From the NCBI GenBank assembly GCA_017532725.1, contig JAFXIZ010000065.1, positions 1 to 33,389 of the forward strand: 33,389 nucleotides of DNA. Direction: 5' to 3'. Made by a program: the position numbers and the translations under genes. Source of the DNA: Bacteroidaceae bacterium. GTDB taxonomy: Bacteria; Bacteroidota; Bacteroidia; Bacteroidales; Barnesiellaceae_A. Position 1 is the first letter of the stretch. Each line of letters starts with the position of its first letter. The notes beneath the pieces were generated by a model. That model was not told the origin of the DNA. It saw only the letters and a list, made by a program, of their open reading frames with translations, and made no database searches. Below are positions 14,084-16,887 of this stretch, piece by piece.

Positions 14084-15745
14084 ATGATAGAACAACGATT
14101 AATACAGATTTATCAAGACAGTTTTCGTCAAAATTGGGAACTCCCTGCATTAACCGATTATAGTGCAAGAAAGACTATATCTTATAAAGAACTCTCTGAA
14201 GAGATTGCCAAATTGCACATCTTCTTACAAGAATGTGGTATAGAAAAAGGTGATAAAGTAGCGCTTGTTGGTAAAAACACACCTCAATGGTGTACCGTCT
14301 TTATGTCGGTTATTACATACGGTGCCGTTCTTGTTCCTATTCTTCAGGAATTCAACCCCCACGATATGCACCATATCCTCAACCACTCCGAATCGAAACT
14401 ATGCTTTGCAAGCAACCATATATGGGAACATCTCGAACTTGAGCGTCTGCCCAACGTTCGTGCCTCAATTTCTATCGACGACTTCTCATTACTTGCTCAA
14501 CAAGATGATGAAGAAATCGACATCAAGTTGCAGTCAATCAAAGAACTATATAATAAGAAATATCCCAACGGATTTACACAAGAAGATGTTGTATATGCCG
14601 ATAATGGCAACGATGAACTCGCTATTATCAACTACACATCGGGTACAACCGGATTTAGCAAAGGTGTAATGCTCACCGGCAACAACCTTGCAGGTAACGT
14701 TATGTACGGTACTCGTTCGCACCTCCACTACAAAGGCTCACGCGCATTGTCATTCTTGCCTCTTGCACACGCCTACGGATGCGCCTTCGACTTCCTCACC
14801 CCGTTGGCAGTAGGATCACACATCACACTGTTGGGTCGCACACCCTCTCCCAAGATTTTGTTGAAAGCCTTGTCGGAGGTAAAACCCAACCTCATCATCT
14901 GTGTACCCCTTATCCTCGAAAAAGTATATCGCAAACAAATACAACCCCTCATCAGCAAGGGAGCAATGCGTTTTGCACTCAACATCCCCCTACTCAACGA
15001 TCAGATATACGCACAAATACGCAAGAAACTCATCGACGCGTTTGGTGGCGAGTTTGAAGAAGTAATTGTAGGTGGTGCACCGCTTAACGGCGAGGTTGAG
15101 GCATTCCTTCGCAAAATCAAGTTTCCCCTTACCGTAGGTTATGGTATGACCGAGTGCGCCCCTCTTATCAGCCACACACCTCATCGCGAATTCCAAGCCA
15201 ACTCGGCAGGTCGCACCCTCTTTGGCTACGTCGAAACCAAGATAGAAAAGACCGACCCCAACAGCGAGATAGGCGAGATATGCGTTCGTGGCGAACACGT
15301 TATGCAAGGATACTACAAGAACGAAGAAGCAACCAAGGCTGTATTGGACAGCGAGGGTTGGTTGCACACCGGCGACTTGGGTACAATCACACCCGATGGC
15401 ACCATCTTCATCAAGGGTCGTTGCAAAACAATGTTATTGGGAGCCAACGGACAAAATATCTACCCCGAAGAGATAGAAGCAAAACTCAACAACCTGCCCT
15501 ACGTTATGGAGAGTCTTGTTGTAGAGCGTGATGGCAAACTCGTGGCACTTGTATTCCCCGACACCGAAACAATGGATGCCGACGGCGTTAGCAACGAAGA
15601 GTTGCCCGGTATTATGGAAGAAAATCGCAAACAACTCAATAAAATTGTAGCACCCTACGAGCAAATTGCCAAGATACAATTGCACGCCGAAGAGTTCGAA
15701 AAGACTCCGAAACGTAGTATTAAACGCTATTTATACACAAATTAA
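14084..15745 (+). CDS. AMP-forming long-chain acyl-CoA ligase
   Basis: 553 residues, a normal ANL-superfamily length. The P-loop-like motif A3 is YTSGTTGFSKG (about 184-194), the A5 motif GYGMTE is at about 352-357, HTGDLG is at about 428, and the A8-A10 region runs through KGRCKTMLLGANGQNIYPEEIE (about 443-464). The catalytic-lysine region lies near the end (KTPKRSIKRYLY, with the lysine in KTPKRSIKR). The enzyme activates a fatty acid with ATP to acyl-AMP and then acyl-CoA. Bacteroidales commonly encode several such paralogues, so the chain length and physiological role (lipid salvage, beta-oxidation-like use or envelope lipid synthesis) cannot be told. No transmembrane segment. The next gene has its own promoter 52 nt downstream. 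Confidence 0.92.
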   Translation: MIEQRLIQIYQDSFRQNWELPALTDYSARKTISYKELSEEIAKLHIFLQECGIEKGDKVALVGKNTPQWCTVFMSVITYGAVLVPILQEFNPHDMHHILNHSESKLCFASNHIWEHLELERLPNVRASISIDDFSLLAQQDDEEIDIKLQSIKELYNKKYPNGFTQEDVVYADNGNDELAIINYTSGTTGFSKGVMLTGNNLAGNVMYGTRSHLHYKGSRALSFLPLAHAYGCAFDFLTPLAVGSHITLLGRTPSPKILLKALSEVKPNLIICVPLILEKVYRKQIQPLISKGAMRFALNIPLLNDQIYAQIRKKLIDAFGGEFEEVIVGGAPLNGEVEAFLRKIKFPLTVGYGMTECAPLISHTPHREFQANSAGRTLFGYVETKIEKTDPNSEIGEICVRGEHVMQGYYKNEEATKAVLDSEGWLHTGDLGTITPDGTIFIKGRCKTMLLGANGQNIYPEEIEAKLNNLPYVMESLVVERDGKLVALVFPDTETMDADGVSNEELPGIMEENRKQLNKIVAPYEQIAKIQLHAEEFEKTPKRSIKRYLYTN

Positions 15746-15796: not shown

Positions 15797-15829
15797 TTGC
15801 AACGTATTGAAAAATTATCTATACCTTTG
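15797..15829 (+). promoter_or_regulatory. Bacteroidota-type promoter of the CDSC lipoprotein gene
   Basis: TTG at 15797-15799, a 22-nt spacer, then TACCTTTG at 15822-15829, a full match to TAnnTTTG. The predicted start of transcription is about 15836. An in-frame TTG at 15838 would leave no leader, which supports ATG 15880 as the real start, with a leader of about 44 nt. Confidence 0.7.
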
Positions 15830-15879
15830 TCGCGTTTTTGAAACTACAAGTTATTGTTTTATCTTTAATTAAGGAAAAA

Positions 15880-16101
15880 ATGAAAAAGTTAGTATTGTTC
15901 TTTGCAGTTGCTGCTGCTGTTTCTTTCGCAGCCTGCACCAACAAACCCGCTGAGGCTACTGAAGAAACTGTTGATAGCGTTGCTGTTGTATGCGACTCTT
16001 GCGCTGTTGCTTGCGATTCTTGCGAAGTAGCTTGCGATTCTTGCAAAGTAGCTTGCGATTCTTGCGAAGTAGCTTGCGATTCTTGCAAAGTAGCTGAATA
16101 A
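15880..16101 (+). CDS. Small cysteine-repeat lipoprotein (five CDSC heptads)
   Basis: 73 residues. MKKLVLFFAVAAAVSFAAC is a lipoprotein signal with C19 as the lipidated residue. A short acidic linker (20-36) follows, then five heptads of the form VACDSC(E/K/A), with cysteines at 38, 41, 45, 48, 52, 55, 59, 62, 66 and 69, and the end VAE. The mature protein is about 55 residues with ten cysteines besides the lipidated one, all in CxxC pairs and each pair carrying an Asp. No known domain is recognised. Metal binding or thiol redox buffering in the periplasm or outer membrane is inferred from the CxxC array only. It has its own near-consensus promoter and a terminator, so it is a single-gene unit. 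The start ATG follows AAGGAAAAA and lies about 44 nt after the predicted transcription start. Confidence 0.85.
   Translation: MKKLVLFFAVAAAVSFAACTNKPAEATEETVDSVAVVCDSCAVACDSCEVACDSCKVACDSCEVACDSCKVAE
15985..16089 (+). repeat. Five 21-bp in-frame tandem repeats coding for VACDSCx
   Basis: The units start at 15985, 16006, 16027, 16048 and 16069. Units 3-5 are identical except for alternation of GAA and AAA in the last codon (unit 2 differs from them by one base in its first codon). Unit 1 is the most diverged (GTT GTA first codons, GAC for GAT, GCT last). The gradient and the alternating last codon suggest growth by duplication of 42-bp (two-unit) blocks. Confidence 0.95.
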
Positions 16102-16127: not shown

Positions 16128-16161
16128 GAGCCGTTACCATTGGTGGCGACTCTTTTCTTTT
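16128..16161 (+). terminator. Rho-independent terminator of the CDSC lipoprotein gene
   Basis: An imperfect hairpin, 16128-16152 (GAGCCGTTACCA pairing with TGGTGGCGACTC with one mismatch), is followed by TTTTCTTTT. It lies 26 nt after the stop codon. Confidence 0.75.
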
Positions 16162-16491
16162 ATATATCATATAGTTGCTTATGCAACTATTTTAGCACGA
16201 TATAATAACGCCTACATAGTGTATGATACAAACAAGAAATAAAGTACATTCAGTACTTGTCTGCTATTACTTTATTTCCTACGTTCTTCATCGCATTATT
16301 TTTCTTTTACCTAAATACATAACTATATCAAATTATATTTCTATATTTACCCACGATTTCTCGAGGGCTTTTGTTGTTAATCTCGAAGCACATTGAGCAA
16401 CCCCTCGATTTGTCGAACTATTGATTGATTGGTGGGAGTTTCTATTAATGATAGTAGTGTGAATATCCTATCAATCTGTTTTTGTGGCTAA
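16162..16491. other. AT-rich stretch without a gene; inverted repeat and possible coding debris
   Basis: No convincing gene is present. An 11-bp inverted repeat (GAAATAAAGTA at 16236-16246, TACTTTATTTC at 16268-16278) encloses a second offset one (AAGTAC/GTACTT at 16242-16247 and 16253-16258). On the minus strand, 16487-16377 is a 36-codon open stretch ending in TAA whose translation (QIDRIFTLLSLIETPTNQS) looks protein-like but has no start codon. I take it as possible debris of a lost gene. Confidence 0.4.
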
Positions 16492-16644
16492 TCTAAACAA
16501 GGGCAGACAAAGCCTGTACACGTTTACCATTTGTTGGTAGAGGGCACAATGGACTACAATGTGATGAAAGCGCTTAACGGCAAGATTGCAACGCAGGATG
16601 GGTTGATGAACGCGATAAAGGCTGTTGTAAGCAAGTATCGATAA
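16492..16644 (+). pseudogene. C-terminal remnant of a phage-type SNF2-family helicase
   Basis: About 50 codons are open and end at TAA 16642-16644; a stop lies directly upstream and there is no start. The translation contains GQTKPVHVYHLLVEGTMDYN, then VMKALNGKIATQDGLMNAIKA. This matches the conserved C-terminal pattern of SNF2-type helicases in prophages of Gram-positive bacteria and Bacteroidota (G-Q-T-x-V-x-V-Y-H-L-x-A-x-G-T-x-D). The rest of the gene, normally about 450 residues, is absent. It marks a decayed prophage or similar element at this locus. Confidence 0.6.
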
Positions 16645-16664: not shown

Positions 16665-16694
16665 ATAAAAAGGGGCTAAATTATATAAGCCCCT
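16665..16694 (-). terminator. Terminator of the small RHH gene, overlapping its stop codon
   Basis: AGGGGCT at 16671-16677 pairs with AGCCCCT at 16688-16694 (7 bp, 10-nt loop). On the minus strand TTTTAT follows the stem. The stem includes the last codons of the minus-strand gene, and this supports that gene as real. Confidence 0.65.
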
Positions 16695-16887
16695 CTAAAA
16701 GTTCATTGATAACATCGTTGCGAGTTTTGCCCATTCGCTCGGCGTAGGCTTTAAGATTGTTTGAAGCCATTTCCGACACCACAAATCCGAGAGTAATACG
16801 TTTAGCCTCTCCCTTCGGTTTGCGCCCTGCTCCTACTCGACGACCTCCTCGACCGCTTTTCTTTTCCGTTTTGTTTTCCATTTCCAT
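16681..16887 (-). CDS. Small ribbon-helix-helix-like DNA-binding protein
   Basis: 68 residues. A basic N-terminus with GRGGRRVGAGRKPKG (13-27, AT-hook-like) is followed by a strand (RITLGFVVS) and two helices (MASNNLKAYAERMG, TRNDVINELLEGL) in ribbon-helix-helix order. Such proteins bind operator or transfer-origin DNA as dimers. In Bacteroidota, the GGRRxGAGRK start is common among small proteins of plasmids, conjugative elements and prophages. The gene is isolated between a helicase remnant and a 130-bp set of inverted repeats, so it is probably a leftover regulator or mobilisation accessory of the same element. A -7 box (TAAATTTG, minus strand 17009-17002) lies about 115 nt upstream, and a terminator overlaps its end. 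Confidence 0.65.
   Translation of the reverse strand: MEMENKTEKKSGRGGRRVGAGRKPKGEAKRITLGFVVSEMASNNLKAYAERMGKTRNDVINELLEGLI

Follow-up and report, generated by a model that had tools for sequence, protein, structure and literature searches.

A small gene in a contig of a Bacteroidaceae bacterium (GenBank JAFXIZ010000065.1; the whole stretch of 33,389 nucleotides that was analysed is hereinafter referred to as the window) encodes a lipoprotein with a regular array of cysteines, and raises the question of which family such a protein belongs to, how the array arose and what it is for. The gene is complete (positions 15880–16101, + strand; 73 aa) and, as translated, consists of a signal peptide with a lipobox (MKKLVLFFAVAAAVSFAAC, 15880–15936, + strand; lipidation predicted at Cys19), an acidic spacer, TNKPAEATEETVDSVAVV (15937–15990, + strand), in which the family alignment identifies one retained VDS motif of the ancestral type, and five 21-bp repeats (15991–16095, + strand), each encoding CDSC and a three-residue linker. 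The signal peptide is followed by a 54-residue tail that carries the five CDSC units; counted from Cys19, the mature part comprises 55 residues, with ten tail cysteines in addition to that of the lipobox, and is acidic (predicted pI ~4.05). Tandem Repeats Finder reports a period of 21 bp (7 residues) with five copies and 91% matches. Units 2–5 differ from each other at 0–1 of 21 bases (20–21 identical), and unit 1 differs from them at 4–5 bases (16–17 identical). When the mature peptide was shuffled 200,000 times, five CxxC motifs at period 7 never arose. The first-pass annotation had read the tail as five VACDSC(E/K) heptads; this holds for four units, the first being VVCDSCA. Minus-strand ORFs across the repeats were set aside as a consequence of stop-free repeats.

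The same annotation recognised no described family, a statement that has to be revised. Taking identity and history jointly, we consider it highly probable that the gene is a positional ortholog of the PG1828-family lipoproteins (NF050142) of Bacteroidales, with which it shares the locus and a near-identical signal peptide. NF050142 is the best NCBIfam match of the window protein, at 39.8 bits, i.e. below the naming cut-off of 50 bits; the members of the genus score 43.2–49.1 bits, and Cys-free positional orthologs exceed the cut-off (58.3 and 58.4 bits). An AMP-binding acyl-CoA synthetase (14084–15745, + strand; PF00501, 236 bits), which is divergent from mtaB, anchors the family locus in synteny comparisons and is found directly upstream of the lipoprotein gene both in the genus and in several further families. 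Three members that pass the NF050142 cut-off (L021, L022 and L228) sit at the synthetase locus, such that the window gene occupies the same place downstream of the synthetase as these proteins, with a consistent tree. The window protein also has a signal peptide with a lipobox and a short mature peptide, as expected of the PG1828 family, and both the family alignment and the locus comparison show that the signal peptide is near-identical between families. The likeness to PG1828 of Porphyromonas gingivalis extends to the signal peptide and lipobox, the size, the acidic low-complexity tail and the place downstream of an AMP-binding acyl-CoA synthetase: PG1829 is given as an AMP-binding protein (PMC10434189), and from the locus numbers PG1828 would most likely have the synthetase as its neighbour too. 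Triacylation has been reported for PG1828 (PMC11225709, PMC10126205), which is also described as a strong immune stimulator present in LPS preparations; by analogy, the lipobox cysteine of the window protein may be triacylated as well. The difference lies in the tail, which elsewhere in the family consists of Cys-free Asp-Ser/Thr repeats, as opposed to the CDSC repeats of the window protein.

When 393 Bacteroidales genomes were searched with the family profile (E <= 1e-6), matches were found in 81. Tail cysteines are absent in all 30 ortholog loci outside the genus, where the tail is mostly made of VDSA/VDTT-like repeats. In a tree of the neighbouring synthetase (38 loci), the 8 loci with Cys tails form one clade (SH-aLRT 99), the 30 Cys-free loci fall outside it, and the neighbouring clade, family f109, lacks tail cysteines. 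Given this distribution of Cys-containing and Cys-free loci, the simplest reading is that a tail of Asp-Ser/Thr repeats was converted to CDSC repeats once, on the stem of the genus.

Within the genus, orthologs with a Cys tail were identified in seven other genomes, with weaker matches elsewhere in the order. Counts for the genus refer to the 8 genomes with an intact locus, the window included; the contig of G006 stops within the upstream synthetase, so that the lack of an ortholog there carries no information, and a match in that genome on C119 is an unrelated lipoprotein cut at a contig end. The homologues in related genomes that the first-pass annotation had proposed to look for are thus present in every member of the genus with an intact locus, and the intact ORF, the lipobox Cys19 and these orthologs bear out a genuine lipoprotein gene. 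Its suggestion that the repeat number varies holds as well, the number ranging from 2 to 5 between species of the genus: there are five CD(S/T)C units in the window and G008, three in G001–G005 and two in G007. Across these 27 units, none of the 54 Cys or 27 Asp residues has been replaced, and synonymous codons occur among them (TGT was observed four times; GAC 10 vs. GAT 17); the serine is replaced by threonine once, and the linkers vary from one to four residues. This pattern of substitution indicates that the Cys codons of the tail are under clear purifying selection. Retention of the Cys and Asp residues through synonymous codon changes, next to linkers that vary, is not expected of a free spacer. 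The corresponding explanation, that the tail is a passive, disordered acidic extension of an abundant small lipoprotein in which repeats are gained and lost by slippage and the cysteines have no function of their own, would accommodate the low complexity and great variability of the tail across the family, along with the near identity of units 2–5 in DNA, a sign of recent duplication. However, we consider it unlikely, given the preservation of these codons between species and the normally high cost of unpaired cysteines in the envelope.

Cys-rich tails at other loci bear on the same explanation. A group of Cys-rich lipoproteins (L057 in G396 and its relatives) has a different signal peptide and does not match NF050142. 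Another lipoprotein with three CDSC units (L102 in G397) is encoded directly upstream of radA, and the lipoprotein encoded at the same radA locus in G410 has DST/DTT repeats and is free of tail cysteines, so that in at least one case a Cys-rich tail at another locus has a positional counterpart that lacks tail cysteines. In family f25, Cys tails are present in G380 and G317 and absent in G032, G145 and G240, and a lipoprotein of G435 has 16 tail cysteines. All the Cys-rich proteins among these resemble the window protein in that the lipobox precedes an acidic spacer, which leads into a tail with many CDSC or similar Cys motifs, but differ from it in their loci and, in part, in their signal peptides; they are unnamed in the libraries searched. 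This distribution suggests that Cys tails were gained independently at least twice, and probably more often, in Bacteroidales, and such apparent recurrence is a further argument against functionless cysteines. We tentatively propose, as a possibility short of a probable one, that Bacteroidales repeatedly converted Asp-Ser repeat tails of tiny envelope lipoproteins to CDSC thiolate arrays, and that the resulting metallothionein-like peptides, anchored in the envelope by lipid, would constitute a class without a name. When genome contigs were scanned with a three-unit CDSC pattern, the matches listed included four small Bacteroidales lipoproteins (L057, L102, L073 and L080), most of the others being simple repeats and unrelated proteins; two-unit matches in G102 and G114 are not lipoproteins. 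Lipoprotein-like N-termini combined with CDSC repeats were also observed in Planctomycetes, namely, in Planctomycetes bacterium Pan216 (L103) and Rhodopirellula europaea (L130).

The first-pass annotation had assigned the gene its own promoter and terminator, and both the promoter-like −7 box and the terminator stem prove to be conserved in the genus. The −7 box of Bacteroidetes has the consensus TAnnTTTG. When 8 genus members and 3 outgroup loci were aligned, a conserved promoter-like sequence was identified at 15797–15829 (+ strand), consisting of TTG at 15797–15799 and a −7 box of the Bacteroidetes type, TACCTTTG, at 15822–15829, with transcription predicted to start near 15836. The predicted 5′ leader (about 15836–15879, + strand) is nearly invariant in the genus; it is recognisably similar in another family (L015), beyond the needs of translation alone, and Rfam gave no match within the window. 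Downstream, an intrinsic terminator-like hairpin, GAGCCGTTACC/GGTGGCGACTC, followed by a T-tract (16128–16162, + strand), is predicted to fold and is conserved in the genus, with compensatory changes in the stem across 7 genomes. The codon adaptation of the gene is 0.63, compared with 0.71–0.78 for the three translation genes that served as the reference, and corresponds to about the 84th percentile of 73-codon stretches within the window; high expression is possible on this basis.

The region beyond the terminator differs between genomes. The window contains ~0.9 kb more than G001 between the lipoprotein gene and uvrA, including a 44-aa C-terminal remnant resembling a phage DNA helicase (16489–16644; phrog_62, E 3e-8) as well as a 68-aa ORF (16681–16887) that weakly matches a phage family, and the additional sequence is probably a decayed mobile element. 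In G005, an apparent phosphate-uptake (Pst-like) operon and a two-component system lie between the lipoprotein gene and uvrA (L045, 1525–8257), indicating that the downstream side of the locus has been rearranged.

Conservation of the signal peptide exceeds that of the mature part, within the genus as well as between families (window 15880–15936, L006, L008, L013, L015 and L228), which is unusual for a lipoprotein. Relative to the window, the signal peptide has no amino acid changes in five of the seven orthologs, one in G005 and three in G007, with synonymous changes present, and a control lipoprotein shows the reverse relationship (74% for the signal, 83% for the mature part). Conceivably, the signal peptide is itself the selected part, for example, as a released fragment with a signalling or regulatory role, the tail merely completing the lipoprotein. 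We consider this very improbable: the comparison involves a single control, no receptor or processing enzyme is known, and the conservation of the cysteines would be left unexplained.

As for the cysteines themselves, the tail is predicted to be disordered, in a low-confidence AlphaFold model (mean pLDDT 47.8, with the tail below 50), and a PDB sequence search with the window protein gave no match. Surface export in Bacteroidetes is directed by a C-X-K-(D/E)2 or SDDDD-like signal directly after the lipobox cysteine (PMC5080379). No such signal follows Cys19, where the residues are TNKPAEATEE, and a tail facing the periplasm is, thus, somewhat more likely, with the proviso that these signals come from other Bacteroidetes and may not be those of the genus. 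The gene's own promoter would drive production of a peptide that, once lipidated at Cys19, is held in the outer membrane and bears a flexible acidic tail. The paired thiols, with an Asp between them, would make this an envelope thiolate tail to which soft metal ions (Zn, Cu, Cd or Fe) bind reversibly; alternatively, the CDSC thiols would act as a thiol/disulfide buffer. The selection on the Cys codons makes such a role plausible, and we put the chances that the tail has been selected for metal or thiol chemistry at slightly below even.

Bacterial metallothioneins, such as SmtA and MymT, are likewise small, rich in cysteine and devoid of a predicted fold of their own, but the window protein differs from them in its predicted lipid anchor in the envelope, its regular heptad repeats and its lack of a match to known metal-binding or metallothionein families in Pfam and NCBIfam scans. 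No metal or redox gene adjoins the lipoprotein gene, nor was a regulatory site for a metal regulator identified; literature searches found nothing relevant on small Cys-rich or metallothionein-like lipoproteins in this phylum and no described function for a PG1828-type tail.

The conservation of CDSC fits disulfide cross-linking as well as it fits metal binding. In this main functional rival, intermolecular disulfides between CxxC motifs would join copies of the lipoprotein to one another or to partner proteins and so make the outer membrane stiffer; the protein would then be the covalent counterpart of an abundant structural lipoprotein. The regular paired cysteines on a lipid-anchored tail and the clear selection on them are compatible with cross-linking, as is the steady expression suggested by the leader and the signal peptide. 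However, codon adaptation is merely moderate, CxxC pairs favour intramolecular over intermolecular bonds, these bacteria are probably gut anaerobes and no partner is known, and we judge cross-linking to be improbable, marginally more so than the passive extension. Overall, the best explanation, to which we give somewhat better than even chances, is that the gene is a PG1828-type ortholog whose CDSC tail buffers metals or thiols at the envelope through its thiolates.

PG1828-type lipoproteins have been known, with a Cys-free tail, as immunostimulatory molecules of the envelope that act on the host; what is new is a regular cysteine array as the tail in one genus. Together with the similar changes on other lipoproteins in other lineages, this array represents a natural experiment on tail function, and it points to lipoproteins with Cys tails as candidate proteins with which gut anaerobes handle metals or thiols at the envelope.
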